Shown: one piece after another, positions 6,566 to 24,623 of the stretch
Numbering within the stretch: position 1 is the stretch's first letter
How the letters are laid out: the number at the start of each line of letters is the position of its first letter
Source: a virus
Reading direction: 5' to 3' (one strand)
IMG/VR virus record: IMGVR_UViG_3300024343_000105
Location: 1-26,107 of that record
Length of the DNA: 26,107 bases
Position numbers and translations under genes: made by a program
The notes under the pieces: generated by a model
Seen by the model: the letters and a program-made list of their open reading frames with translations, nothing else
What the model was told of the DNA's origin: nothing
Database searches by the model: none

Positions 6566-7014
6566 GCACCGAACTCGTCGATGCGTGGGTTCCCGGCGAT
6601 CCGAAAGCGCAACCACGGCCACGGGCTTTTGCCCGTGGCAACCGGATCCGCATGTATGACCCAGGAACCGCAGCCGCGTGGAAAGCCCGCGTGATCGAAT
6701 CGTTGCGGCCTTGGAAGCCCGAGCGACAGATCGACGCGCCTGTGCTGATGGTGATCGAGTTCTACCTGCCAAGGCCACAGCGGCTTCTGCGTGCCAAGGA
6801 CTCGGAAGACCCGATCTCCTGCGGCTCCAAGCCCGATCTGGACAACCTGATCAAGGCGGTCATGGACGCGATGACCGACGATGACTGGTGGTGCGACGAC
6901 AGCATCGTGGTTGCCTTGTGCGCGTCGAAGATGTTCCACAGCAAGGGCGGATCGCCTGGAGCACGCATCTTGCTGCGTCAGTTGTCCGAGGACTCCAGCG
7001 TGACATTCTCATGA
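6562..7014 (+). CDS. rusA: RusA-like Holliday junction resolvase
   Basis: Predicted 150 residues. The pattern is that of RusA: VPGDPKAQPRPR at the N-terminus, a Tyr-containing strand (MYDPGTAAAWKARV), and the catalytic segment KPDLDNLIKAVMDAM, with its conserved aspartates, followed by DDDWWCDDSIV and a Lys in CASKMFHS, the usual active-site order. RusA is a dimeric endonuclease that cuts four-way junctions symmetrically. Here it would process junctions made by the nuclease/ERF pair before packaging. The C-terminal tail (ARILLRQLSEDSSVTFS) is short. It overlaps the next gene as ATGA. Confidence 0.9.
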   Translation: MSTELVDAWVPGDPKAQPRPRAFARGNRIRMYDPGTAAAWKARVIESLRPWKPERQIDAPVLMVIEFYLPRPQRLLRAKDSEDPISCGSKPDLDNLIKAVMDAMTDDDWWCDDSIVVALCASKMFHSKGGSPGARILLRQLSEDSSVTFS

Positions 7015-8198
7015 TCGTAGACGACCTCAAATCGTTGGCTGTCCCGCTGGACAGCCTTGTCCAAGACCCGAGCAACGCACGCAAACACAGCGAGCGCAAC
7101 ATCGAGTCCATCGCCAACTCGCTGCGCTTGTTCGGGCAGCGACGCGCCATCGTCGTGCAGCGCAACGGCAGGATCGTTCGCGCTGGCAACGGAACGCTCC
7201 AAGCCGCTCGCAAGCTGGGTTGGACCGAGATCGCTGCCGTCATGGTGGACGATGACAACGCAACGGCCATGCAGTTCGCAATCGCGGACAACCGCACCGC
7301 AGAACTGGCCGAGTGGGATGACGAGACGCTGGGCCTGCTGCTCGATGGCTTCGACCAGGAGATCCGCGACTCGATTGGCTTCAACGAGGAGGAGTTCAAC
7401 CAGTTGATGGCCGACCTGACTCCCAAGGAGGTCACCGAAGACGAAGTGCCCGAAGCACCAGCCGAGCCGATCACCAAGCCAGGAACCATGTGGCTGCTTG
7501 GCCAGCACCGACTGCTTTGTGGCGACAGCACACGTGCAGAGGACGTTGCCCGACTCATGGACAGCAAGCGAGCCGATCTGCTGCTGACCGACCCTCCCTA
7601 CAACGTGGACTACGAGGGCAGCAACGGCATGAAGATCGCCAACGACTCGATGGAAGCTACGCAGTTCCAGTCGTTCCTCAGCAAAGCGTTCAAGTGCGCG
7701 TTCGACGTGATGAAGCCTGGGGCATCGTTCTACATCTGGCACGCAGACTCCGAAGGCTTCAACTTCCGCGCTGCCGTCGTGAACTGCGCCCAGAAGGTGC
7801 GCCAGTGCCTGATCTGGACCAAGAACGCGCTCGTCATGGGTCGCCAAGACTACCAGTGGCAGCACGAACCCTGCCTCTACGGCTGGAAGGACGGTGCCGC
7901 GCACGGTTGGTATTCCGACCGCAAGCAGACCACCGTGCTGCACTACGACAAGCCACGCTCCAACGACCAGCACCCGACCATGAAGCCCGTGGCCCTGTTC
8001 GCCTACCTGATGGGCAACTCCACGGCTCCCCAAGGGCTGGTCTTCGATCCGTTCCTCGGCTCAGGCACCAGCCTTGTCGCTGCCGAGCAACTCGGACGCA
8101 CCTGCTACGGGATGGAACTCGCTCCAGCGTATTGCGACGTGATCGTGCAACGCTGGGAAGCTCTCACCAACCAGAAGGCAGTGCGCGTCGATGGCTAG
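7011..8198 (+). CDS. ParB-like domain fused to a DNA N4/N6 methyltransferase
   Basis: Predicted 395 residues from the ATG at 7011, which overlaps the RusA stop. Residues ~8-100 are a ParB/Srx-like domain: VPLDSLVQDPSNARKHSERN, then an IVRAGNGTLQAARKLG box in the place of the family's G-x-H/G-R motif, and AIADNRTAELAEWD. Residues ~155-390 are a beta-class amino-methyltransferase: the catalytic DPPY at 194-197, HPTMKP at 321-326, and the AdoMet loop DPFLGSGTS at 346-354 followed by GMELAPAYCD. DPPY before the AdoMet motif marks the beta order and suits adenine-N6 or cytosine-N4 methylation. No cognate restriction gene is visible, so it is probably an orphan enzyme protecting the phage DNA or marking it for replication or packaging. 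Such fusions are known in phages. Confidence 0.9.
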   Translation: MIVDDLKSLAVPLDSLVQDPSNARKHSERNIESIANSLRLFGQRRAIVVQRNGRIVRAGNGTLQAARKLGWTEIAAVMVDDDNATAMQFAIADNRTAELAEWDDETLGLLLDGFDQEIRDSIGFNEEEFNQLMADLTPKEVTEDEVPEAPAEPITKPGTMWLLGQHRLLCGDSTRAEDVARLMDSKRADLLLTDPPYNVDYEGSNGMKIANDSMEATQFQSFLSKAFKCAFDVMKPGASFYIWHADSEGFNFRAAVVNCAQKVRQCLIWTKNALVMGRQDYQWQHEPCLYGWKDGAAHGWYSDRKQTTVLHYDKPRSNDQHPTMKPVALFAYLMGNSTAPQGLVFDPFLGSGTSLVAAEQLGRTCYGMELAPAYCDVIVQRWEALTNQKAVRVDG

Positions 8199-8637
8199 GC
8201 CACGCACAACGATGACGGACGCGACCTGCGAAGCGATCCTCCGCACCATCAAGCTGGGCCTGCACCCAGAACGTGCAGCGCAGGCGCACGGCGTTTCCCC
8301 TGGGTCCATGCGTGCTCACCGCAAGCGCAACCCCGAGTTTGCAACGGCCATAAAAGAGGCAGAGGCAGAAGCCGAGCGCAACTTCCTGGGACGCATCATG
8401 CAGCACACCCAGCGGCAGTGGACCGCAGCCGCATGGCTCTTGGAGCGCAGGTTCCCTGAGCGTTGGAAGCGTCAGGACGGCACCCATGAGGTAAAGGTCA
8501 CAGGCAACGTGCGTAGCGAAGGACCACCTGCACCAGCAGAGCCGAAGGCCCTGTCGGACTATGCCAGCTTGTTCGCAGCCGCCGCCGCGTCTCTCCGACT
8601 GCCCGATCAAGATGACGAACCCCACGACCCAGCTTGA
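8191..8637 (+). CDS. terS: Terminase small subunit
   Basis: Predicted 148 residues, overlapping the methyltransferase stop by 8 bases. An N-terminal helix-turn-helix (DATCEAILRTIKLGLHPERAAQAHGVSPGSMRAHRK) would bind the packaging site. It is followed by a helix (FATAIKEAEAEAERNFLGRI) for oligomerisation and by TAAAWLLERRFPERWKR, a sequence highly typical of phage small terminases. The C-terminus is Pro/Ala-rich and probably contacts the large subunit. Position directly before the large terminase supports the call. The last 26 bases overlap the large-subunit gene. Confidence 0.85.
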   Translation: MARPRTTMTDATCEAILRTIKLGLHPERAAQAHGVSPGSMRAHRKRNPEFATAIKEAEAEAERNFLGRIMQHTQRQWTAAAWLLERRFPERWKRQDGTHEVKVTGNVRSEGPPAPAEPKALSDYASLFAAAAASLRLPDQDDEPHDPA

Positions 8638-10228
8638 GGCTCACCAGCTTGGGCGCAAAACGATCCTGGACGGCATCGACCAGATGGCCCCAGGCATCCT
8701 TGGCAACCCTTGGATCCCTGAGTGGCCCACAGCACGCCAACTGCTGTTCCTGAGCCTGCACCGCATGACCAAACCCACGGGGCAGGTCTTCGAAGCTCTC
8801 TACGGCGGTGCGGCAGGTGGCGGCAAGTCGTCCGCCCTGCTGATGAGCTTGGCGCAGATGGCGTGGCTCTACCCAGAGTTCAGCGGCATCGCCTTCCGCC
8901 GCTCCTACACCGACTTGACGCAACCAGGAGCCTTGCTCGACCGTGCGTTCAAGTGGTGGTTGCCCTGCGGGGCTGCTTGGAACGGCAGCACGCGCAAGTT
9001 CATCTTCCCCAACGGTGCTCAGGTGGCCATGTCCTACCTGTGGGGACCAACCGACCACCTGCGCTACCAAGGTGCCGAATACCATGCGACGGCATGGGAC
9101 GAGCTGACGCAGTGGGCCACGCCGCACCAATACACCTACGTGGGCATCTCCCGCGTGCGCCGCAAGCATTCCTCCAACGTCCCGCTGCGCACGCTGGCAA
9201 CCAGCAACCCTGGTGGGCCTGGGCACGACTGGGTGCGACGCAGGTTCGTCGGAGGCTACGACGCGACGCAGGGCACCGAGCTTCGGCCAGAGCACTTCTA
9301 CGTTCCTGCCCGACTGGAGGACAACCCGCACCTGGACGTGCAGACCTACGCCAGCGGCTTGGCTTCGCTGCACCCGACCGTGCGCGATCAGTTGCTCCGT
9401 GGCGACTGGGATGCCCGCGACCCTGGGGACTACTTCCGAGCCGAGTGGTTTGGCGAGTTGCTGGATCCAGACGAGGTCGCCAAGCACCGCCAGCACTGCA
9501 TGCGCATTCGGTGGTGGGATCTGGCCGCCTCCGAGCGACCGGACGCAGCAAGGACGGCTGGCGTGTTGATGGCAAGGCACCGCAGCGGAGTGCGGGTCGT
9601 GGAGCACGCCAAGGCGTTCAGGGCCACGCCAGGAGCGCGTGACGATGCGATCATCCAGACCGCGCAGGCCGATGGGCACGGCGTGACTGTGGGCATCGAG
9701 ATCGAAGGCGGCAGCGGAGGCATCGCTCAGTTCCTGAACCTGGAGAAGAGGCTCAAGGCAAAGGGCTTCCGCGTTGCAGGTGCTCGACCGCGTGCAGATC
9801 TGACAGACCGCGAAGCAGGTGTGCTGGTGCGGCAGCACGCGCAGAAAGCGTCGAAGGCCATGCGTGCAGACCCAGTCGCGTCGTGCCTAGAGCGTGGCTA
9901 CATCCGTCGTGGAGCTTCGGACAAGACCGAAAGCCCGCACTGGGGTTTGGATGAAAACCTGCCGTGGGACCAGCAACGCGATGGCTTGCGCGTGGTCGCA
10001 GGCAGTTGGGCGCAAAGCTACATCGACGAGCTGATTGGCTTTCCAGAAGGGCACTTGTGCGATCTGGTGGACGCAACCAGCGGAGCGTGGTCTTGGCTGG
10101 AAGCGCACGCGCAAGGCTTTAGCACGCCGCCAGCAATTGCGCCACGCCCAACCGTAGCAGGTGCGGAAGCGCATCCTGACGACCGAACCCGACTGGATGA
10201 CCGCAGGGCATTTGGTAACCTACGCTGA
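8612..10228 (+). CDS. terL: Terminase large subunit (packaging ATPase/nuclease)
   Basis: Predicted 538 residues from the ATG at 8612. The N-terminal ATPase has Walker A GGAAGGGKSS at 65-74 (K72), a motif around IAFRRSYTDLTQPGALLD, Walker B ATAWDELT with D163/E164, and the coupling-type TSNPGGPGHDWVRRRF near 198-212. The C-terminal RNase-H-like nuclease begins with RIRWWDLAASE (acidic D303), then VGIEIEGGSGG, then a late acidic region around HLCDLVDATSGAW. This is the Terminase_6 arrangement. It pumps DNA into the prohead through the portal encoded at 14249 and cuts concatemers. A longer upstream frame was rejected because it runs through the small-terminase C-terminus. Confidence 0.95.
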   Translation: MTNPTTQLEAHQLGRKTILDGIDQMAPGILGNPWIPEWPTARQLLFLSLHRMTKPTGQVFEALYGGAAGGGKSSALLMSLAQMAWLYPEFSGIAFRRSYTDLTQPGALLDRAFKWWLPCGAAWNGSTRKFIFPNGAQVAMSYLWGPTDHLRYQGAEYHATAWDELTQWATPHQYTYVGISRVRRKHSSNVPLRTLATSNPGGPGHDWVRRRFVGGYDATQGTELRPEHFYVPARLEDNPHLDVQTYASGLASLHPTVRDQLLRGDWDARDPGDYFRAEWFGELLDPDEVAKHRQHCMRIRWWDLAASERPDAARTAGVLMARHRSGVRVVEHAKAFRATPGARDDAIIQTAQADGHGVTVGIEIEGGSGGIAQFLNLEKRLKAKGFRVAGARPRADLTDREAGVLVRQHAQKASKAMRADPVASCLERGYIRRGASDKTESPHWGLDENLPWDQQRDGLRVVAGSWAQSYIDELIGFPEGHLCDLVDATSGAWSWLEAHAQGFSTPPAIAPRPTVAGAEAHPDDRTRLDDRRAFGNLR

Positions 10229-10230
10229 CC

Positions 10231-11151
10231 ATGGACCGCATTCCGAAGGGCACGAAAGTGCGAGACCAGTTCGGCAACGTTGGCGAGTTGACCGATGACT
10301 ACGTGGGGAAGAGCACCGCGTGGATCCGCGTCGCAGGCAAGCGCACGGAGGCTCACTCCTCCAAGGTGTTCTTGATGGACGGTCGAAGCCTCACCGAAGC
10401 GATTGGCGCAAACCGAGACCTGATGAGCAAACAACCCGATACCGAAGGCTTGGCCGAGTTGCTGTCGGCTAGCAGTTCCCCAGCCGAGCGTGCCATCCTT
10501 ATGCAGCGGGCTGCTCCGAAGATGGCGATGGCTTCAGATCCGTCCAGCAAGGCTGAGGCTCGATACAACCAAGCCGTCAAGGACTGGAACGCCGCATCCA
10601 AGCGGATGGAAGTTGCCGAGAACAACAAGAACCAAGCAGCCGCCAAGGCGCAGCAAGAGCAAAAGCGGCACATTCAAGAACAGGCTCAGTGGGCCAACTC
10701 TCCGCAAGCCAAGGGCGCGTCGTGGAAAGACATCGAGAAGGCAACGAAGGCGTCTCAGAAGGCTTTGAAGAAGGCCCAGGATGAACTGGATGCCGCCTAC
10801 AGCGAATACGACGCAGCTCGCAAGGCATACCAAGAAAAGCAAGCAGCCAAGGAGAAGGCCCAAGCTGAGTTCTGGACTGCCAAGATTCAGAGCAAGCAGT
10901 CGATGCACGCAGGCCAGCCGCAGGTGGCGATGGCGATCAACCCCGAGGACCGGGAGCAAGCCCGAAACGCGCAACAGCAAAAGCTAGCGCGTGAGGCTGT
11001 TGTCCGATCAGTGGAGACGTTGCAGCGGGTTCTCCCACACATCGTCGATGCGGTCCAAAAGGACAACATGCCTGACGCGGCAGACTTGGTGAACCGTCTT
11101 GGCGGGCTTGTGGACGCGATTGACCGCCGAATGGCTCAAGTGGACTACTGA
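10231..11151 (+). CDS. Coiled-coil protein with two P-x-[VM]-A-M-A sites, possible polyprotein
   Basis: Predicted 306 residues. The first 50 residues (GTKVRDQFGNVGELTDDYVGKSTAWIRVAG, written here in parts: a beta-rich Gly-containing block) look like a small SH3-type barrel. Residues 100-225 are Ala/Lys/Gln/Glu-rich and strongly coiled-coil. Residues 236-306 form a helical C-terminal domain. The blocks are separated by PKMAMA at 96-101 and PQVAMA at 230-235. The same short signal occurs near residue 30 of three neighbouring small proteins and, as P-x-V-x-M, in the protease/scaffold. The gene starts two bases after the terminase stop (TGACCATG). I do not recognise a family. Position suggests a head or internal protein; cleavage into pieces by the capsid protease is my inference. 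Confidence 0.65.
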   Translation: MDRIPKGTKVRDQFGNVGELTDDYVGKSTAWIRVAGKRTEAHSSKVFLMDGRSLTEAIGANRDLMSKQPDTEGLAELLSASSSPAERAILMQRAAPKMAMASDPSSKAEARYNQAVKDWNAASKRMEVAENNKNQAAAKAQQEQKRHIQEQAQWANSPQAKGASWKDIEKATKASQKALKKAQDELDAAYSEYDAARKAYQEKQAAKEKAQAEFWTAKIQSKQSMHAGQPQVAMAINPEDREQARNAQQQKLAREAVVRSVETLQRVLPHIVDAVQKDNMPDAADLVNRLGGLVDAIDRRMAQVDY

Positions 11152-11153
11152 CC

Positions 11154-11242
11154 ATGAACCTACGAACCGACAACGAACGTTCCATCTACCGCAAGGCGCA
11201 CGACGCGGTCCTCAAGGCCACGAAGCCGCAGGTATCGATGGC
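11154..11242 (+). repeat. Leader-coding direct repeat, copy 1
   Basis: The first 44 bases from the ATG are identical to those at 11480-11523. The following ~45 bases match except mainly for third-position changes and a few around PQVS/PDVA. The unit ends at the codons for the M-A of the shared signal. The distance between copies is 326 bases. Confidence 0.75.
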
Positions 11243-11477
11243 CAAAGTGCAACTTGCCACCAACCGTGCGAAGAATGCTGGAGTGCAGATCATTCAGATC
11301 ATTCGCGCTCTGGACCGCATCTACCAGCAAGAGCGGCAATACGTAGAATCGGACATGCTTGACGACTTCTGGACGGATGTTCGCAAAGAACTCGACAGCA
11401 TTGGCCCACTAGTTCGCACCATTGCCGACGAAGCCTCAAGGGCAGTTGGCCGTGCCCGTGACCCGATGGCTCCATGA
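11154..11477 (+). CDS. Small helical protein with shared N-terminal leader (copy 1)
   Basis: Predicted 107 residues. The first 30 (starting MNLRTDNERSIYRKAHDAVL and ending KPQVSMA at 24-30) are nearly identical to those of the next protein. The rest (residues 31-107) differs entirely and looks like a helical hairpin. A conserved leader with a divergent body is the pattern expected for a targeting or pro-sequence rather than for ordinary duplicated proteins. The gene starts two bases after the preceding stop, with the same TGACCATG junction as the genes at 10231 and 11800. No database family is recognised. Confidence 0.65.
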   Translation: MNLRTDNERSIYRKAHDAVLKATKPQVSMAKVQLATNRAKNAGVQIIQIIRALDRIYQQERQYVESDMLDDFWTDVRKELDSIGPLVRTIADEASRAVGRARDPMAP

Positions 11478-11479
11478 TC

Positions 11480-11568
11480 ATGAACCTACGAACCGACAAC
11501 GAACGTTCCATCTACCGCAAGGCCCATGACGCGGTTCTGAAGTCCACGAAGCCCGATGTGGCGATGGC
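11480..11568 (+). repeat. Leader-coding direct repeat, copy 2
   Basis: This is the second copy of the unit at 11154-11242: 44 identical bases, then mostly synonymous differences up to the P-D-V-A-M-A codons. The 11-mer GTGGCGATGGC near its end (11558-11568) is also found at 10924-10934 and 12190-12200, in the signal codons of two other genes. Confidence 0.75.
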
Positions 11569-11797
11569 CTTCAGACCACTGTCTGCCAAGGACGTGCAAG
11601 AGTGGGATGTTGAGGTGCGCGCAAACGCCAAGCGGGATCTGAACGACTCGATCCAATACTGCGAAGAACGCATCCGCAAGTTCCAAGCGGTGGTTCAGGA
11701 AGCGCAACGCTTGCTGTCCCAAGTTGACTCGATGCGCCGCGAAAAGATCAGCAGCGCGGTCAGCGCGATTTCCTACAAGGCTGCTGGAGTGAACTGA
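11480..11797 (+). CDS. Small helical protein with shared N-terminal leader (copy 2)
   Basis: Predicted 105 residues from the ATG at 11480. An ATG at 11474 overlapping the previous stop is possible, but 11480 gives the same two-base stop-to-start gap and the same leader length as the paralogue. Residues 1-30 repeat the neighbour's leader (MNLRTDNERSIYRKAHDAVL, then KPDVAMA at 24-30). Residues 31-105 are unrelated to it and helical, with EERIRKFQAVVQEAQRLLSQ as a likely coiled coil. No family is recognised. A head-delivered internal protein is the hypothesis I favour. Confidence 0.65.
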   Translation: MNLRTDNERSIYRKAHDAVLKSTKPDVAMAFRPLSAKDVQEWDVEVRANAKRDLNDSIQYCEERIRKFQAVVQEAQRLLSQVDSMRREKISSAVSAISYKAAGVN

Positions 11798-11799
11798 CC

Positions 11800-12099
11800 A
11801 TGACCAACCTTTGCAAACTGCCGCATGGCAACATCGTTCGGAACATGGCTGGTGCGCAAAACTTCGCGTATTCGGACGAAACGCCACGCGACCGCGCCCG
11901 CCGAGAAGAGTTGGCGGATCAAGTGTATCGGCGGCAAATCAGCGAAGCGTTGTCGATGGCAAAGCAACTGCAACAACTGCTGAACAGCGTCGTGCGTGAA
12001 CTGCAACTGCCTGATCCTGAGTCAGCGGAAGACGAAGCCAAGAAGGCTCGACCCGTGCTGGAAAAGTTGAACAGCCTGTTGCCCAAGATCTATCGGTAA
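11800..12099 (+). CDS. Small helical protein of the same cluster, diverged leader
   Basis: Predicted 99 residues, beginning two bases after the previous stop (TGACCATG). The N-terminus has no P-x-V-A-M-A; the nearest match is NIVRNMAGAQ at 11-20, which may be a degenerate form. Residues 28-99 are strongly helical and charged, with a likely coiled coil (QISEALSMAKQLQQLLNSVV) and a second helix ending LEKLNSLLPKIYR. No family is recognised. It belongs to the cluster by position, size and helical body rather than by the signal. Confidence 0.6.
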   Translation: MTNLCKLPHGNIVRNMAGAQNFAYSDETPRDRARREELADQVYRRQISEALSMAKQLQQLLNSVVRELQLPDPESAEDEAKKARPVLEKLNSLLPKIYR

Positions 12100-12105
12100 C
12101 CATCC

Positions 12106-12459
12106 ATGAACAACCTCGCATCCCAACTTCGTGACTGCCGCACCGCTGCGCAGCGTGCAGTCGTTCTTCAACACGGACAAGCACCGGAAGTGGCGATGGC
12201 TGGTGGCGACGTGCAAAGCATGCTGCGCAACCTGACGCAGATGCATCAAAAGGCCACCGCCTACGTAAAGAAGGCACAGCAAGCCATCGGACAGATGAAT
12301 AAGCTGCTGCCCGATATCGGAGAGTCCGTGGACATGCTCAAGTACGCAGCCACGTCGCGAGAACCAGACGAGCAAGAGTTGGCGGCTGGGCACTACTCCG
12401 AGGGCATGGACAACGTGGCAGAGATCCAGAAGCTGGTCAGGCTTCTCGGCCAGTTATGA
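12106..12459 (+). CDS. Small helical protein with P-E-V-A-M-A leader signal
   Basis: Predicted 117 residues. The leader AAQRAVVLQHGQAPEVAMA (residues 14-32) closely resembles AERAILMQRAAPKMAMA (residues 85-101) of the protein encoded at 10231, sharing A-[QE]-R-A and a Q before the A-P-x-[VM]-A-M-A end. The remaining ~85 residues are helical (MLRNLTQMHQKATAYVKKA, then IGQMNKLLPDIGESVDMLK). The function is unknown. The stop overlaps the next, much larger gene as ATGA, so the cluster is translationally tied to it. Confidence 0.65.
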   Translation: MNNLASQLRDCRTAAQRAVVLQHGQAPEVAMAGGDVQSMLRNLTQMHQKATAYVKKAQQAIGQMNKLLPDIGESVDMLKYAATSREPDEQELAAGHYSEGMDNVAEIQKLVRLLGQL

Positions 12460-14252
12460 ACCTGCACAACCAGTCGGCTTCATGCTTTCACGGCTGGAAG
12501 CGTGTCGTTGTCGATCAGCAGCCGCCGCACCTTGCAGGCAAGTGCGAGGACGGCACCAAGTGGGTTGTCGCTGGGCAACTCACGCCAGACACCTGGGCAG
12601 TCGATGTCTGGGTTGTTCTGGAGATGCAGGAACTGCGGTCGATCAAGTTGGAAGGCGAGAAGTGGGAGTTCACGCCAACTCCGCTGCCTCCCAACATGCT
12701 GGACTGGTTCGGTGGTCCTCCGACCATCGAGGGCGTGCCGATGGCCTGGATTGAGCACAAGCAGGACGGCGCGTCGTTGTGGGCGCACTTCCGCCAGCGC
12801 ACAGGAAGCCTGCTCGTCATCGACATGTGGGTGCGGTGGTATGCGGACCAGCCAAGCGTTGCGACGGGTGAGATCGTGGTTGCGGCCAGCAACCCAGCGG
12901 TCCCAGACGTTGAGATGACGCTGCCGTTCGATCTAACCTTTGCGTGGGGTTCTGCAACGGTCACGCTGCCAGCGCAGCGCACCGATGGAACACTGCTGCG
13001 GCAAGGCGAGATGATCGGTGATGGGCAAGCACGCTCGTTGCCGTTCGCGTTGACCTGGACCAACCGACTGCAAACGCCAGAGCAGTGGCAGCACGCCGCA
13101 GCGGTTGCCTCGATGATGGTGTTCGGGCACGGCTGCACGAACGTGTGGACCAGCGGACAACTGATCGACCGCGACCCAGCATCCATCCCGGAAACGTCGC
13201 AGCGTCACCTGCTGGACGCGATCAGCCGCGTCTACACCTACGACGCAGGCCCGCTTGGCGTGACCGCAGCGAGCACCGTGTCGGGAGCGCAGGAAGACCA
13301 GATCTACGTCGGCAAGCAGGCAGGCTACGCACAAGGCATGGCCCACGTGCAAGCCCGATACCTCACCGCACTGCGGCAGAGCCTGCGCCCTTGCCACCAC
13401 CTGGAGAAGGACGGCCAGCACCTGGACCTGTCTCAGCACCCGTCGCTGGTGTTCTGGGATGGCCGACCGCACTGGCACCACGGCGTTTCACCGGACCGAC
13501 TTGGCAAGCCACGCGCACCTTACGCGTGGGAGTTGCACAACTGGTGGGGACCAGACGTAGAGCACGCGCTTTGCCAAACGCTGTCGCTGGCTGCGCGTCT
13601 GACCGGATCGGATGCGTTGCAGTGGCAGCTTGAGCACTGGGCACGCATCTACCAGTTGCAGTGGACCTGGAAGGCGGGCCTGAGCACTTCGCAACCCTAC
13701 GCAGCCCGAGCCATCGGTTACGAAGGGCTGCTGGTCACCAACCTGCACGCGACGCTTACCAACCGCGACACGGCAGCGCAGGTGGTCAAGCACTGGACTG
13801 AGCGTCTTGGGCGCATCCTTGTCCCTGCGCTGGCTGGCAAGTGGAAGGACATCTGGGACGTGCGACAGGACGATCCGCGTCTTGGCCCAGGTCCGTGGTG
13901 GATCCCGTGGCAGCAGGGCTTGGGTTGCTACGGGCTTTGGATCGCCAGCAAGCTGGTCAATGATGCGGATGGTTTGCGCATCGCCAAGCAAGCAGCCAAC
14001 CGCGTTGTAGCAGATGCATGGTCGCTGGCAAACAACGGACGATGGGTGACCAAGGCGTCGATGAGCTGCGTCGATCTGTCGGCGGGCACTGCGGACGAGT
14101 CGTTCAACCTGTTCGGCATGAGCTTCGCCGTTTGGGTGGTGCTTCAGGACTCACCAACGCATGTCAGGGCGGCTAGCATCTGGGAGCAGTTGCAGCGCGA
14201 CACGAAAGGCGACCATCCGTGGTTGCCACCCACACCGAAGCCACCGCAATGA
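12456..14252 (+). CDS. Large protein resembling glycan-active barrel enzymes
   Basis: Predicted 598 residues. The first ~330 residues are beta-rich with many Trp (VVLEMQELRSIKLEG, DMWVRWYADQ, TGEIVVAASN), like the barrel domain of RIFT-barrel/YetA-type proteins. Residues ~350-590 look like an alpha/alpha toroid: repeated helix pairs around LHNWWGPDVEHALCQTLSLA, LQWQLEHWARIYQLQW, ARAIGYEGLLVTNLHATL, GPWWIPWQQGLGCYGLWIAS. That two-part layout is seen in polysaccharide lyases and hydrolases. I cannot point to a catalytic residue with confidence. It sits between the small helical cluster and the portal, overlapping both by four bases, an unusual place for a glycan enzyme. A virion-associated structural or depolymerase role is inferred. 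There is no signal peptide. Confidence 0.6.
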   Translation: MNLHNQSASCFHGWKRVVVDQQPPHLAGKCEDGTKWVVAGQLTPDTWAVDVWVVLEMQELRSIKLEGEKWEFTPTPLPPNMLDWFGGPPTIEGVPMAWIEHKQDGASLWAHFRQRTGSLLVIDMWVRWYADQPSVATGEIVVAASNPAVPDVEMTLPFDLTFAWGSATVTLPAQRTDGTLLRQGEMIGDGQARSLPFALTWTNRLQTPEQWQHAAAVASMMVFGHGCTNVWTSGQLIDRDPASIPETSQRHLLDAISRVYTYDAGPLGVTAASTVSGAQEDQIYVGKQAGYAQGMAHVQARYLTALRQSLRPCHHLEKDGQHLDLSQHPSLVFWDGRPHWHHGVSPDRLGKPRAPYAWELHNWWGPDVEHALCQTLSLAARLTGSDALQWQLEHWARIYQLQWTWKAGLSTSQPYAARAIGYEGLLVTNLHATLTNRDTAAQVVKHWTERLGRILVPALAGKWKDIWDVRQDDPRLGPGPWWIPWQQGLGCYGLWIASKLVNDADGLRIAKQAANRVVADAWSLANNGRWVTKASMSCVDLSAGTADESFNLFGMSFAVWVVLQDSPTHVRAASIWEQLQRDTKGDHPWLPPTPKPPQ

Positions 14253-15565
14253 CTCAAGAACTGCGCTCACGCAATCAGGCATCGCAACTCTACGTTCGCG
14301 CACTCAGCGCAGCGTGGCGCAACAACATCGAGTTGCACGACCCTTCGCTTTGGCTTCTCAAGGAGCCAGAGATGGAGGAGAAGATGCTGCGCGACGCGGA
14401 CATCGCTCACGCAGTTGGCTTCCGCCGCCACCTGATCGCTGGTCGCCAGTGGAACGTGGTGCCGCAGGTGGAAGGCAGCAAGCGAGCGGCCATGGCCGTT
14501 GGCGTGGCAACGCACCTGCTGGAACAGGTCGAGCACTTCACCCAGGCCCGCCTCAACTTGGCCCGAGCATTCTTCAGTGGAGCACGCTTTGCCCGCATCC
14601 ATGGCAAGGTCAAGACGCTCACGCTTGGCGACGGCAAGGCCCGCAAGTGGTGGGTGCCCACGCGCCTGGAGGATCTGGACAAGCGCATGTTCCGCATCAC
14701 GCCAAGCAACCAGGACGGCCAGAAGATGGTCCAGTGGAAGCAGTGGGACATGATGCGCGACGACTGGCGACCTCTGACCATCGAGGAGACGGCTCTCACG
14801 ATTCGGCACGTCTACCAGGATGACCAAGCCAGTCTTGGGCACGGTCGTGGCCTGCGCGAAGCGTTGGCTTGGTGGTGGTGGGCCAAGGAGCACGTGTTCC
14901 GAGAGTCGCTGCAAGCAGTCGAGCGGTTTGCGCAAGGCATCCTGACGGCCAAGGTGGACGGCATCCGCGACGCGGAGACGGGCATGCCCAACTCCGAGCT
15001 GATCAACTCCTGGCGAGATGTGCTGGAAGACCTGCGCAGCCGCCACGTTCTTGTTCACGACTCAGCCGACAGCATCGAGACTGTCAGCGGCAGCAGCGAA
15101 GGCTGGCAGATGCTGTCCACGATGCGCGGTGAGTTGCGCAGCACCATCTTCACGCTGGTCTTGGGAGCAAACCTGACCACCGCAGCCAGCGACGGCGGCT
15201 CCTACGCACTGGCCGAGATTCAAGAGAACTCGACCGAAGCGTTGATCCAATACGACCGCGAAACGCTGGAAGAGACGCTGACCAAGAGCTTGCTTGGTGC
15301 GATCTGGTGGAAGAACCACGCGAACATCGTGGAGCTTGGTCTGCTGAACGAGAAGCCACGCTTCAGCATCACTCAGGAGAAGAGGCAAGACCCGCAGGAG
15401 CGCATGCAGGTTGCCCAGGCCCTGAACTCGATGGGGGTCGAGTTGTCGTTGGAAGATGTGCTGGAGCAGTCGGGCTTCAAGAAGCCGCAGCCTGGGGAGA
15501 CGGTCATCCCTGCTGGTGGCTTGCAGCAGTCGATCATGCCGCAGGGAGGCTTGTCGCTGCCGTGA
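14249..15565 (+). CDS. Portal protein (DUF935, Mu gp29-like)
   Basis: Predicted 438 residues from the ATG at 14249, which overlaps the previous stop. Family features are an early MEEKMLRDADIAHAVGFRRHLIAGRQWNVVP segment (given here as a pattern rather than an exact motif), a central RHVYQDDQASLGHGRGLREALAWWWWAKEH, then AVERFAQGILTAKV, and SYALAEIQENSTEALIQYDRETLEETLTKSLL near the C-terminus. All match DUF935 portals, the ring through which DNA enters the capsid and to which terminase and tail attach. The last ~40 residues are Pro/Gly/Gln-rich and flexible. The gpF-like protein follows at once, as in Mu. Confidence 0.9.
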   Translation: MTQELRSRNQASQLYVRALSAAWRNNIELHDPSLWLLKEPEMEEKMLRDADIAHAVGFRRHLIAGRQWNVVPQVEGSKRAAMAVGVATHLLEQVEHFTQARLNLARAFFSGARFARIHGKVKTLTLGDGKARKWWVPTRLEDLDKRMFRITPSNQDGQKMVQWKQWDMMRDDWRPLTIEETALTIRHVYQDDQASLGHGRGLREALAWWWWAKEHVFRESLQAVERFAQGILTAKVDGIRDAETGMPNSELINSWRDVLEDLRSRHVLVHDSADSIETVSGSSEGWQMLSTMRGELRSTIFTLVLGANLTTAASDGGSYALAEIQENSTEALIQYDRETLEETLTKSLLGAIWWKNHANIVELGLLNEKPRFSITQEKRQDPQERMQVAQALNSMGVELSLEDVLEQSGFKKPQPGETVIPAGGLQQSIMPQGGLSLP

Positions 15566-16721: not shown

Positions 16722-17265
16722 CCTCTACGCTTCCACACCAGTGGGCCTGCGGTCCAAGTACGCTCGCCCCATCGCGGCGTTCACGCGCCCAGCGGACACG
16801 ACTGCTTACGCACAAAACGATGTCGTGTCGGACAGCAGCGCAACTGCCAAGTGCTTGATCTTCTTGGACGCAGGCGGACAAGGCGTGGTGCAGAACGCAA
16901 CCGTCGCTTTCCACGACGGTCAAAACGTGGATTTGGAGCTGTTTCTGTTCCAGAGCGAGCCGACCAACTTTGTAGACAACGCGCTGTGCAACCTTGCAAC
17001 TGGGGACCTGCGGCACTGCATCGGATCGTTCGTGTTTAACTACTTGAACCGCCGACCCGCGACTGCAACTGGAACCATCAACGTGTATCGATCCGACCTT
17101 GGGGCGACCGTGGCTGGGTCAGGATTGCAGACCGTCGATCAAGGTCTGCCGTTCAACTCCGTCAGCGGCGCGTTGTTTGGTCTGCTGGTCACGCGCACGG
17201 GCTTCACGCCAGTCGCCTCGACGCGGTTTGATCTGAGCCTTGGCATTGTGCGAGGAGACGCGTGA
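16705..17265 (+). CDS. Beta-rich virion protein, possible decoration/fibre type
   Basis: Predicted 186 residues from the ATG at 16705. A longer frame starting inside the HTH gene has poor codon use. The stretch AAFTRPADTTAYAQNDVVSD followed by alternating hydrophobic strands (ATVAFHDGQNVDLELFLFQ, then FTPVASTRFDLSLGIVRGDA at the end) is typical of small beta-sandwich proteins found in phage virions near capsid genes. Two isolated Cys are present. No enzyme motif is seen. Its place before the protease/scaffold suggests a head-associated protein; the precise role is unknown. Confidence 0.65.
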   Translation: MAQVTNLYASTPVGLRSKYARPIAAFTRPADTTAYAQNDVVSDSSATAKCLIFLDAGGQGVVQNATVAFHDGQNVDLELFLFQSEPTNFVDNALCNLATGDLRHCIGSFVFNYLNRRPATATGTINVYRSDLGATVAGSGLQTVDQGLPFNSVSGALFGLLVTRTGFTPVASTRFDLSLGIVRGDA

Positions 17266-18653
17266 TGAGCGGATTCGCAGGCTACAAGGCCACCGAAAAG
17301 GATGGCGTGCTGGTCATTCACAACGTCCCGATCTTTGTCGAGTGCCAGCGTGGCGAGCACAACTTCGACAAGAACTGGATCTCGCAGGCGGTCGCCAAGG
17401 CGATGCAGGCCGAGAAGGAGGGCTACCTTCCTCCGCTGCATGTGCGGCACCACACCGGATCGCAGGACGATGGAGTGCGCCCTGCGGGCTTCTTCCGCAT
17501 CGTCGGAACGGGCCTGATGACGTTTAAGGGTCAGCCGTCGCTGGCAGTCTACGCAGATCTGCACATCACGGACCCGAGCGTGCGGGAGGAAGTCCTGAGC
17601 AAGCGACTGCCCTACCGCTCGGTCGAGATCTTCGACGTGGACGCGCCTGCCTTGGACTCGCTGGCCCTGCTGGACCACGAAGCTCCCTACCTGGAGTTGC
17701 CGATGCTGATGGTCGCGGACATCAGCGAGAGCGAACAGCCAGTGACTGCGGCCAACGGGGTAGCGAGTGCGACTTTCTACAACCCGTGGCTGCAACGTCG
17801 CGGTGACGTGAAGCAACCCGTGGTAGCCTGCTTCCGTCGTGGCAGCAGTGCGATCCTACTGATCGAGGACGACATCAACATGAACAAGCAGAACAAGAAG
17901 CGAGCAGCGTTCGCAGCCGAAGCCGAGTCCTACCCGCAGGACCAGATGGAGGCTGTGAAGGACAAGCCCGAGGTTGGCATGGAGGACGCTGCGCCAGTGC
18001 AAGACAAGCCCGAGGAGAAGATGCAGGACGAAGGCGGCATGAACGTCGCTGCAATCTGCGATGCAATCCGCAACGGTGCTATGTCTTCCGAAGACATCGC
18101 GGCCATCCAGGCTGCGCTTGCTGAGTCGCAATCGGGCGGCTCGCCTGAAGCCGAAGACACCGAAGAGGCAGAACCCGTTCCCATGGCTGAAAGCATGAAG
18201 GCTCTCCCCGCTGGCATTGGTCAACAGATGGCTCGCATCGCTGGCGAGAACGCAGTTCTGCGTGCTCGACTGGATGAGCGTGAAGCTGCCGACCGCCGCC
18301 GCGATGATGTCACGGTTGCGCTCGCCAAGCTGGAAGGCCGTCCGTGCGGCAGCGACATCAAGGAGCGTCTGTTCGCGTTCCACAAGAAGCACGGTGCCGA
18401 AGCGTTCGGTGAATACGTTGACTCGATGGTCAACACGTTCGGTGAACTGGACGGCTTGGTGGACCACGGCGTTGCGAACTTCGCACGCACCGAGGACTTC
18501 ATTCCTCCGGTTGCGATGAAGTGGACCAAGGACGGCCCTGAAGCCGTCGAACGAGCCGCTCGCTTCGCACGCGAGTGGAAGGATCTTCGCGGTCGCGGTC
18601 TCACGCGTCAGAGCGAAGAGCGTTACATCGAACTCAACATGTCGAGGAACTGA
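17265..18653 (+). CDS. Capsid maturation protease with C-terminal scaffold
   Basis: Predicted 462 residues from the ATG at 17265 behind GGAGACG (17254-17260). A GTG at 17262 is also possible. Residues ~1-175 resemble gpI/DUF2213-type head proteases: PPLHVRHH (H59, H62/H63 as candidate catalytic histidines), GTGLMTFKGQPSLAVYADLH, then LPYRSVEIFD with S119 as candidate nucleophile, and LALLDHEAPYLELPML. Residues ~206-460 are acidic and helical, as in scaffolds that are digested after assembly. P-x-V-x-M occurs at 235-239 (KPEVGME) and 414-418 (IPPVAMK), the same short pattern as in the small proteins upstream. The context directly before the decoration and capsid genes supports this call. Confidence 0.85.
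   Translation: MSGFAGYKATEKDGVLVIHNVPIFVECQRGEHNFDKNWISQAVAKAMQAEKEGYLPPLHVRHHTGSQDDGVRPAGFFRIVGTGLMTFKGQPSLAVYADLHITDPSVREEVLSKRLPYRSVEIFDVDAPALDSLALLDHEAPYLELPMLMVADISESEQPVTAANGVASATFYNPWLQRRGDVKQPVVACFRRGSSAILLIEDDINMNKQNKKRAAFAAEAESYPQDQMEAVKDKPEVGMEDAAPVQDKPEEKMQDEGGMNVAAICDAIRNGAMSSEDIAAIQAALAESQSGGSPEAEDTEEAEPVPMAESMKALPAGIGQQMARIAGENAVLRARLDEREAADRRRDDVTVALAKLEGRPCGSDIKERLFAFHKKHGAEAFGEYVDSMVNTFGELDGLVDHGVANFARTEDFIPPVAMKWTKDGPEAVERAARFAREWKDLRGRGLTRQSEERYIELNMSRN
17880..18653 (+). CDS. Possible nested in-frame scaffold start
   Basis: An ATG at 17880 (residue 206 of the protease/scaffold) begins MNKQNKKRAAFAAEAESY, exactly where the protease part ends and the acidic scaffold begins. 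A GAGG at 17865-17868 gives a loose ribosome site. Separate scaffold production from a nested start is known in several phages (lambda C/Nu3), so this 257-residue product is plausible. The spacing is long and the evidence is positional only. Confidence 0.35.
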   Translation: MNKQNKKRAAFAAEAESYPQDQMEAVKDKPEVGMEDAAPVQDKPEEKMQDEGGMNVAAICDAIRNGAMSSEDIAAIQAALAESQSGGSPEAEDTEEAEPVPMAESMKALPAGIGQQMARIAGENAVLRARLDEREAADRRRDDVTVALAKLEGRPCGSDIKERLFAFHKKHGAEAFGEYVDSMVNTFGELDGLVDHGVANFARTEDFIPPVAMKWTKDGPEAVERAARFAREWKDLRGRGLTRQSEERYIELNMSRN

Positions 18654-22232: not shown

Positions 22233-24623
22233 ATGGCGATCCGCAAGTTCTTCCTGACCTTCGGCCAGAGCAACGCAGGGACTCATGCGGACTACGCGGC
22301 GTGGGGCATTCTGCATGCTGGCCTCTACGTCGATTACGCGGCGTTGCCTCTCAGTGCGGATGCCTCACGCGGCGGCTACAACGACACGTTCACATTGCCC
22401 GGGACGTGGCCTGAGTTCCCAACGTGCTCGCTGAAGGGAAGCGCGGTCGATGCGATCCGCTACCTCACGTTCTACAACCCATGCGCCACGGGCATCGCCT
22501 ACCTGACCTACCCAGGCACGGCGCGGGTCACGGGGTTCAACAATCAAGTCAGCACGACAACAGCTACCGCGCTGACGACTTCGCTGAAGTGGCAATACAG
22601 CCCTGTCGGTCGAACGATCACGCGTGAGCGCACGGGCACCACGCACACGGTCACCACATGGTTTGGCGTGGCTGCGGACCAGTTCATCGTCACGCCTGCT
22701 TTTGATCCGCCTCCGATCACCGGAGAGGAGATCACCTACACGCACCAGACGGGTGTTGCGAGCGGCTCAGGCAACTACATCTGCCTTGAGGCTCGCTACG
22801 GAGACGACTTCGGAACGGATGGATCGTGGAACGGATCGCTTGCTGGAATGCGCGTGCGTTGCACTGCCAGCGGTCATCCGAACAACGTCGGACTGATTCG
22901 CTACGTCAGCAGCATCACGCTTGACGCAGGGATTGCAAACGACGTAGGCGTCGGAGTTCCAACGGTCAAGATCACCTTCAGCGAGGCATTGCCTAACCAT
23001 CCCAACGATGGCGACACGTTCGTCATCGAGCCGCCTCCGGTGAACGACACTGCGGTGCCGTTCGAGAAGTGGGCCTACTGGTTGCCTTGGTGCCCTATCG
23101 AGGGTCGAGCGACAACGACAACGGTCACGGCATCCGCTATCGCATCGGGCATCGGAGGCTTTGCAGCATTCACCGTTCCTGCTGGTCACGGCATCGTCGC
23201 TGGGCAGGCAGTCAACGTGATCGCACCAGCGGTGCCACCAAGCACGCCAGCGCAAACCACCTACCAAGGCACGCACTTCGTGGTAGAGGTCACCGCGACC
23301 ACGATCACGATCAACCTTGCCTACAGCGCGGCCATGTCGGTGCCGCACTACCTTCGGTTGCTCGGCAAGATCAATACGTTCCCGCCGGGGTTCAACTACC
23401 CGAACCACATCGCGCATCAGGTCTTCTACCAGCCGTTTGTGGGCGAGTCCTACCTCTACGGTCTTGGGTCGCCGTTCGCCGTGACGGCACGCGCCGCCTA
23501 CCACGTAGGCATGGCCAACTTGCTGCAAGAGAAGCTGGGCGAAGCGATCTACGTGGTCAACCTTGCCGTCGATGGCGTGACGTTGGCGCACAACGACCTG
23601 TATTCCAACGCGGTCATTCCGGTGCCGTCCATCGGGTGGTTTGACCCGCAACAGCAAACAAGCTGGGCACCTGGAGATCGCAACAACTGCTATGCGCGGT
23701 TGGTCGACACGCTAGATGCGGCTCGCCTTGCTGCGTTGCGCGATGGCGACACGTTGGAGTGCATCGGCATCTTCTTCGTGCAAGGCGAAGGCGATGCGGC
23801 AGCAAACAACGAAGCGTTCGCGCTTCGCTACGAGAGCAACCTGAAGTCGTTCAAGTCTGCCGTGCGCAACTTGGTCTACGCCTCGGGCTTCTTTCACGGG
23901 CCTGCGGACACGATCCCGTGGGTGCAACCGCAGATCAGTGGGACGAGCATGGCTGCGCCATGGCCCTACTTGGCGACCGTCAACGCGGCCATTCAGGCTG
24001 TCGCGGATGCCGACCCATACATGCGCACGTTCTCGATGACCGATGCGCCGAAGAACGGAGGCGGTGACGAAGCGCACTACAGCGCAGCGGGCATCACGCT
24101 TCTGGAGCAACGAGCGTTCGCGGCATGGGACGCGATCTACAACGGAGCCGAGCCGACCTACGCGGAGTTGTGGAACGCAGTGGTTTGCGACTACGACCTG
24201 GATGGCTTGGTGACGCTGACCAACACGCGTGACCGCTCGGCCACCGAGATCGACCACGTTGCAGGCCGACGCGCCGCGCAGGCAGTCATCGACCTGTTCC
24301 CGTTGTATGCGCAAGCCGCCTACGACAGTTCCAACGCGCAGCACCTGGAGGCGGCAGAGCTTGGCGTGATCGCCATGCTGTGGCGACGCGGAGGCACGGC
24401 CAGTGCCATCGAGAACGTCAAGTGGGAGACGGTCTTTGGCGATGACGGGCTGATCGCCAAGATCCGCAAGACGAAGCCGCGTGCTCGCATCGTGCCAACG
24501 TCCAACAGCGGCACGCAGCAAAGCAGCGAGCTGAACAGCGACGGCAGCAAGATCTACGGCTGGAGCGATCCAGCGGGACTGCCTGCTGGGTTCCTGAGCC
24601 AGCCAAAGGCTGCGGAGGACTGA
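22233..24623 (+). CDS. Large SGNH-hydrolase-like esterase, probable virion glycan deacetylase
   Basis: Predicted 796 residues. Block I lies at the very N-terminus: FLTFGQSNAG with S13 as nucleophile (GQSN is typical of sialate-acetylesterase-type SGNH enzymes). VVNLAVDGVTLAHNDL near 444-459 could be a second block. FFVQGEGDA (Q517-D521) matches the Q-G-E-x-D element of the family. GGGDEAHYSAAGI supplies D612 and H615, completing a Ser-Asp-His triad. About 430 residues of beta-rich sequence separate the first block from the rest, probably an inserted binding domain. The C-terminus has DYDLDGLVTLTNTRD, a possible Ca-binding loop. Removal of acetyl groups from host surface glycans is the likely role. 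Confidence 0.75.
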   Translation: MAIRKFFLTFGQSNAGTHADYAAWGILHAGLYVDYAALPLSADASRGGYNDTFTLPGTWPEFPTCSLKGSAVDAIRYLTFYNPCATGIAYLTYPGTARVTGFNNQVSTTTATALTTSLKWQYSPVGRTITRERTGTTHTVTTWFGVAADQFIVTPAFDPPPITGEEITYTHQTGVASGSGNYICLEARYGDDFGTDGSWNGSLAGMRVRCTASGHPNNVGLIRYVSSITLDAGIANDVGVGVPTVKITFSEALPNHPNDGDTFVIEPPPVNDTAVPFEKWAYWLPWCPIEGRATTTTVTASAIASGIGGFAAFTVPAGHGIVAGQAVNVIAPAVPPSTPAQTTYQGTHFVVEVTATTITINLAYSAAMSVPHYLRLLGKINTFPPGFNYPNHIAHQVFYQPFVGESYLYGLGSPFAVTARAAYHVGMANLLQEKLGEAIYVVNLAVDGVTLAHNDLYSNAVIPVPSIGWFDPQQQTSWAPGDRNNCYARLVDTLDAARLAALRDGDTLECIGIFFVQGEGDAAANNEAFALRYESNLKSFKSAVRNLVYASGFFHGPADTIPWVQPQISGTSMAAPWPYLATVNAAIQAVADADPYMRTFSMTDAPKNGGGDEAHYSAAGITLLEQRAFAAWDAIYNGAEPTYAELWNAVVCDYDLDGLVTLTNTRDRSATEIDHVAGRRAAQAVIDLFPLYAQAAYDSSNAQHLEAAELGVIAMLWRRGGTASAIENVKWETVFGDDGLIAKIRKTKPRARIVPTSNSGTQQSSELNSDGSKIYGWSDPAGLPAGFLSQPKAAED

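Follow-up and report, generated by a model that had tools for sequence, protein, structure and literature searches.

Five consecutive small open reading frames (g1 to g5) in the window, a 26,107-base stretch of uncultured phage DNA (IMG/VR record IMGVR_UViG_3300024343_000105), are best explained as an accessory cassette inserted in a variable slot between the terminase large subunit gene (terL) and the portal gene of a Mu-type head module. The leader found in these accessory proteins is a discrete module, closed by the fixed element P-x-[VM]-[AS]-M-A and placed in front of bodies that differ between the proteins. The most likely reading, to which we give a probability of roughly 0.4, is that the leader targets accessory head proteins and is processed, in the manner of the capsid-targeting sequences of T4, and that it is swappable and probably cut. 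Under this reading, the leader would direct each protein to the scaffold core inside the prohead, where the head protease would cut at or beside P-x-[VM]-[AS]-M-A, perhaps after M or A. Cutting would free the helical bodies of g2, g3 and g5 and would divide g1 into three pieces; the bodies would then stay in the head, from which they could enter the host with the DNA. This reading is favoured because of the analogy with T4 internal proteins, P1 DarB and the head proteins of SPN3US, by which we infer that the proteins would be packaged, cut and ejected and that they may act in the host. Within the window, it draws on a motif that is enriched in and confined to the cassette, an exact leader boundary, selection on the leader, the unrelated bodies, the location of both g1 copies in modelled linkers, the head-gene neighbourhood and a downstream protein that resembles a protease-scaffold by fold.

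Gene order around the cassette

The packaging and head genes of the window are arranged as a small terminase-like gene, terL (8561-10228, plus strand; PHROG 979 terminase, E 1.5e-73; Pfam Terminase_6C), a Mu-type portal (14249-15565, plus strand; Pfam Portal_Mu, 2.1e-37; start set by alignment with relatives), a MuF-like protein (Pfam Phage_Mu_F, E 2.5e-20), a protease-scaffold (17265-18653, plus strand) and a gpT-like capsid (Phage_capsid_4, 1.4e-10; gpT, 8e-4, just below the cut-off). With Portal_Mu, MuF, a protease-scaffold (gpI/Z in Mu) and a gpT-like capsid in order, this is a head module of the Mu type. To our knowledge, no comparable cassette separates terL from the portal gene in Mu.

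The terL-portal interval, the left border of which is terL, holds the five small ORFs and a 598-aa ORF, g6. All six lie on the plus strand, and their stop and start codons mostly overlap or abut. The first, g1 (10231-11151), encodes 306 residues. It is followed by g2 (11154-11477; 107 residues), which consists of a 30-residue leader and a 77-residue body, and by g3 (11474-11797; 107 residues, or 105 from the ATG at 11480), in which a leader precedes a 75-residue body unrelated to that of g2. A further small protein of the same run, g4 (11800-12099; 99 residues), separates these from g5 (12106-12459; 117 residues), composed of a 32-residue leader and an 85-residue body. The large g6 (12456-14252) has neither motif nor family match, and its C-terminus has a weak counterpart in the closest relative, contig L004.

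The motif and the leader module

Five in-frame copies of P-x-[VM]-[AS]-M-A are present in four of the five small ORFs, as the initial annotation had reported. Two are in g1 (PKMAMA, residues 96-101, 10516-10533; PQVAMA, residues 230-235, 10918-10935), and g2 (PQVSMA, residues 25-30, 11226-11243), g3 (PDVAMA, residues 27-32, 11552-11569) and g5 (PEVAMA, residues 27-32, 12184-12201) have one each, all on the plus strand. The related statement that the signal ends at residue 30-32 in three proteins is likewise correct, the ends being 30 in g2 and 32 in both g3 and g5. The strict motif is absent from every other predicted protein of the window, capsid and portal included; g4 is the only small cassette ORF that lacks it, which counts against targeting and processing. 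Composition shuffles of the five small proteins yielded 0.003 motif matches per trial, compared with the five observed. Because the motif had been read off the same data, a de novo test for a shared 6-mer was added. Its first version, which used unweighted identity counts, was not significant because the Ala, Gln and Lys runs of the g1 coiled coil dominate such counts; in a BLOSUM-weighted version, run afterwards and without g3 because the g3 leader is a copy of the g2 leader, two of 1,000 shuffles reached the observed score (p ~0.002). A degenerate scan of viral contigs for DNA encoding TKPxV[AS]MA found, among the matches listed, clustered same-strand copies in none of 80 contigs.

The strongest sign of a leader module is the exact end of a DNA repeat at the M-A codons, a feature absent from the initial annotation. 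The g2 and g3 leaders are encoded by two copies of a 95-nt repeat (11149-11243 and 11475-11569, plus strand) that are 88% identical without gaps; each begins at the stop/start junction with the preceding gene and stops exactly on the M-A codons, and identity is at background on both sides. The two leaders are 90% identical in protein, and their changed codons comprise six silent and three non-silent ones (dN/dS 0.17, Fisher p 0.009): the g2/g3 leader is under purifying selection. The bodies of g2 and g3, in contrast, show no similarity (p 0.49). The g5 leader resembles the stretch of g1 that precedes the first motif, even with the motif itself excluded (p 0.002), whereas the second g1 motif has six residues in common with the other copies and no leader similarity. 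With g2 and g3 alike, g5 and g1 alike and the second g1 copy bare, the leaders thus fall into two types, with a single six-residue element in common. The agreement of upstream residues described earlier is real for the first g1 copy and g5, and the second g1 copy falls outside it. As in the internal proteins of T4, a leader stands before divergent bodies.

The first half of the leader repeat (11149-11198 versus 11475-11524) differs between the copies at two bases only, one ahead of the start codon and the other close to the end of that half, and the second half holds nearly all the changes, a pattern such as is left after gene conversion of the 5' part.

The existence of the module and the selection on it apply as well to an uncut docking peptide, in which leader and motif would bind the same partner in every case, be it the scaffold, the portal or some other phage protein, and the virion or assembly factors that carry them would keep their N-termini. 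P1 DarB, for instance, owes its targeting to the first 30 residues (PMC9024508). Docking would not, however, need two copies at the module junctions of g1, the second of them without the rest of the leader, and we regard it as rather unlikely. For targeting followed by processing, the bare six-residue copy is as expected of a short recognition site.

It is highly improbable that the motif acts at the level of DNA or RNA, whether by providing internal start codons (ATG-GC) or as a repeated DNA site. GTGGCGATGGC-like DNA is over-represented, with 10 matches compared with 3.4 expected, and all four Ala positions before M use GCG. Exact DNA matches are, however, confined to the motif itself, and the changes in the leader are mostly silent, which indicates that the protein is what is kept. 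The anti-SD energy at the motif ATGs has a mean of ~-4, close to the -3.7 of background internal ATGs, as against -7 to -11 at clear starts; with no Shine-Dalgarno excess, internal translation start at these ATGs is unlikely.

A single-sequence AlphaFold2 model of g1 (mean pLDDT 78, pTM 0.39) predicts a small SH3-like beta barrel and short helices, followed by a long helical hairpin and a short helical hairpin. Confidence is low at residues 61-69, 95-101 and 226-237, and the latter two stretches coincide with the two motifs, one before and one after the long hairpin. Both copies are therefore placed in linkers with pLDDT <50 between confident modules, in agreement with the earlier description of a motif that occurs twice in the first protein, between domains. 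This predicted position fits a cut site or a flexible linker equally, as the model cannot separate the two. A PDB fold search with g1 returned nothing below E 0.001, with coiled-coil and Sm/SH3-like chance matches only, and g1 has no family match in Pfam or PHROGs.

The predicted helix-linker-helix arrangement also suits a cassette of tandem paralogues and fusions, in which the motif would be a structural cap or linker that joins a leader helix to a helical hairpin and has no targeting or protease role. Marginal body similarities between g3 and g5 (p 0.002) and between g4 and g5 (p 0.017), both uncorrected, point in the same direction, but most body pairs are without similarity. Moreover, a structural linker is not expected to keep six residues in three contexts amid divergence, nor to produce a repeat that stops exactly at M-A, and we consider this explanation unlikely.

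The predicted protease-scaffold and its motif-like sites

Support for the ORF at 17265-18653 as a head protease joined to a scaffold comes from predicted folds. Its model has a confident N-terminal domain, the putative protease, a disordered linker at ~157-260 and a helical C-terminal half, the putative scaffold. In a Foldseek search of BFVD, a collection of predicted viral structures, the best named match is a capsid maturation protease (E 1.2e-9), and prohead serine proteases follow at E 7e-7 to 5e-5. No PDB structure matches at E <0.001, which counts against targeting and processing, and there is no Pfam match, the model of the Mu protease included, a point of difference from Mu. One of 12 relatives reaches a head-maturation-protease PHROG, at E 0.04. 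H60/H63/H64 and PYRSVE with S120 are invariant in these 12 relatives and are candidate catalytic His and Ser residues. In the closest relative, the protease-scaffold gene (L004:4528-5930) is split into two overlapping frames, by either a real frameshift or an assembly error.

Two sites in this protein had initially been matched to the cassette signal: P-E-V-G-M in the disordered linker (17967-17981, plus strand; residues 236-240 counted from the GTG at 17262, 235-239 from the ATG at 17265) and P-P-V-A-M at the start of the C-terminal helices (18504-18518, plus strand; residues 415-419). At least two loose motif matches arise in shuffled versions of the protease at a frequency of 0.0005. P-E-V-G-M is present where it was described, at 235-239 from the ATG, but it has no counterpart in the relatives, and the similarity of its flank to the g2 leader is marginal (p 0.056). 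P-P-V-A-M aligns in the relatives with P-G-[IV]-A-L, P-S-A-A-L or S-V-V-A-M, and the string P-x-[VI]-[AG]-[LM] occurs, among real genes of the relatives' contigs, in the protease only. Because relatives with a readable terL-portal interval lack the cassette, P-P-V-A-M is an element of the protease-scaffold family, and we reject it as a cassette-specific signal; the P-V-A-M at 415 is withdrawn as a matching site.

For a site shared between cassette and head proteins, there remain the motif in the cassette, the family element at 415 and the unconserved match at 236 in the protease, and no match in capsid or portal. That the match at 415 is a family element counts against targeting and processing, as does the presence of the protease family in relatives that have neither the cassette nor another matching protein. 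As a guess, P-P-V-A-M could be where the C-terminus is processed in the protease family itself, a site that the cassette would then have copied. The initial proposal of a cassette of head-targeted, processed proteins is plausible and supported in part: it draws on the discrete leader module, the head region and a protease-scaffold recognised by fold, and it loses one of the two arguments taken from the protease, the match at 415.

The slot in relatives and comparison with known systems

Relatives of the window comprise ~20 contigs, in which portal identity is ~62-81% and terminase identity close to 58%. Where a contig covers the whole terL-portal interval, this measures between 39 bases (L028) and ~3.6 kb and contains a 111-aa PHROG 2859 gene, large enzymatic- or structural-looking proteins or other small ORFs, and never the motif cassette. 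The cassette is found only in the window and in a near-identical contig, L003. The contig of the closest relative, L004, ends before the place where the cassette would lie. No diverged homologue of any small-protein body, by which conservation of the motif could be judged, was found in annotated phages, viral contigs or genome contigs, a point that counts against targeting and processing: g1, g2 and g5 have no tblastn match in annotated phages, and the genome contigs contained neither the small proteins nor portal relatives. Searches of the small proteins against Pfam and PHROGs gave no convincing match to T4 internal proteins or other known internal proteins. One slot protein of L004 (L004:149-562) possesses a 32-residue N-terminal extension, missing from its 111-aa relatives, that is weakly like the g5 leader. 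Its pairwise p is 8e-4, uncorrected, but a profile of the two leaders of the window ranks it at E 3.6, and it is not counted as a leader carrier.

The slot genes of the relatives are varied and not clearly internal head proteins, which counts against targeting and processing. Because relatives fill this variable slot with unrelated accessory genes, location alone is no proof of packaging, and the same variability would suit moron-like accessory proteins that work inside the infected cell, for instance in countering host defences, are never packaged and use the leader for some other interaction. The position of the cassette among late head genes and its stop/start coupling to the neighbouring genes argue against such proteins, which we consider quite improbable. 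As an observation on the locus itself, the terL-portal interval (8561-14252 here; loci L005-L030) is a hypervariable accessory slot that ranges from 39 bases (L028) to ~4 kb in the window, with unrelated contents.

Leaders that target and are processed have their nearest parallel in T4, and the parallel is closer than the initial annotation had it: the propeptides of IPII and IPIII are identical although the bodies that follow diverge, and the leader of IPI is similar (PMC9026906). A leader of this kind has been proposed as an evolutionary means for packaging varied proteins in T4 (review, PMC9026906). The 30 N-terminal residues of P1 DarB are enough to package a protein (PMC9024508). Two head proteins of SPN3US lose N-terminal propeptides, one of 20 and one of 24 residues, and the protease of this phage also shortens itself at the C-terminus (PMC10052503). 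Like IPI, IPII and IPIII, the cassette comprises several small proteins in which divergent bodies follow a short N-terminal leader that they have in common, and a head protease is encoded by the phage. It differs in the length of its leaders, 30-32 residues as against the 10 residues of IPIII that suffice in T4, in its motif, its Mu-type portal and its fusion of protease and scaffold, and in being known from genes alone. DarB is similar in the ~30 N-terminal residues involved, but it is a single protein of 250 kDa, and no family match was seen. The propeptides of 20-24 residues in SPN3US, a phage of the phiKZ type, are likewise comparable, although this is a giant phage with another cleavage motif, and no sequence relation to it was found here. 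Cleavage sites of T4 gp21 end in Glu, as does the cleavage motif of SPN3US/phiKZ-type phages. We know of no T4 internal protein with internal motif repeats such as those of g1.

A more specific proposal, which we put forward tentatively and hold to be somewhat doubtful, is that P-x-[VM]-[AS]-M-A is an undescribed head-protease site on which a small Mu-type phage bases an exchangeable cargo system: different bodies would change places behind a constant leader, and g1 would be a cargo polyprotein cut twice in the prohead. Cargo loading by cleavable leaders is well worked out in only a few large phages. If the proposal is true, such a leader, compact and shuffled among proteins of a Mu-type head module, would represent a second, independent signal for the delivery of proteins by phage heads, and it could serve as a query for finding unrecognised injected proteins, the bodies of which escape homology searches.

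Two other genes of the window were noted. The ORF at 7014-8198 joins a ParB-like N-terminal domain to an N6/N4 DNA methyltransferase, and the one at 22233-24623 encodes a 796-aa protein with a weak match to SASA carbohydrate esterases, perhaps a tail or decoration enzyme.
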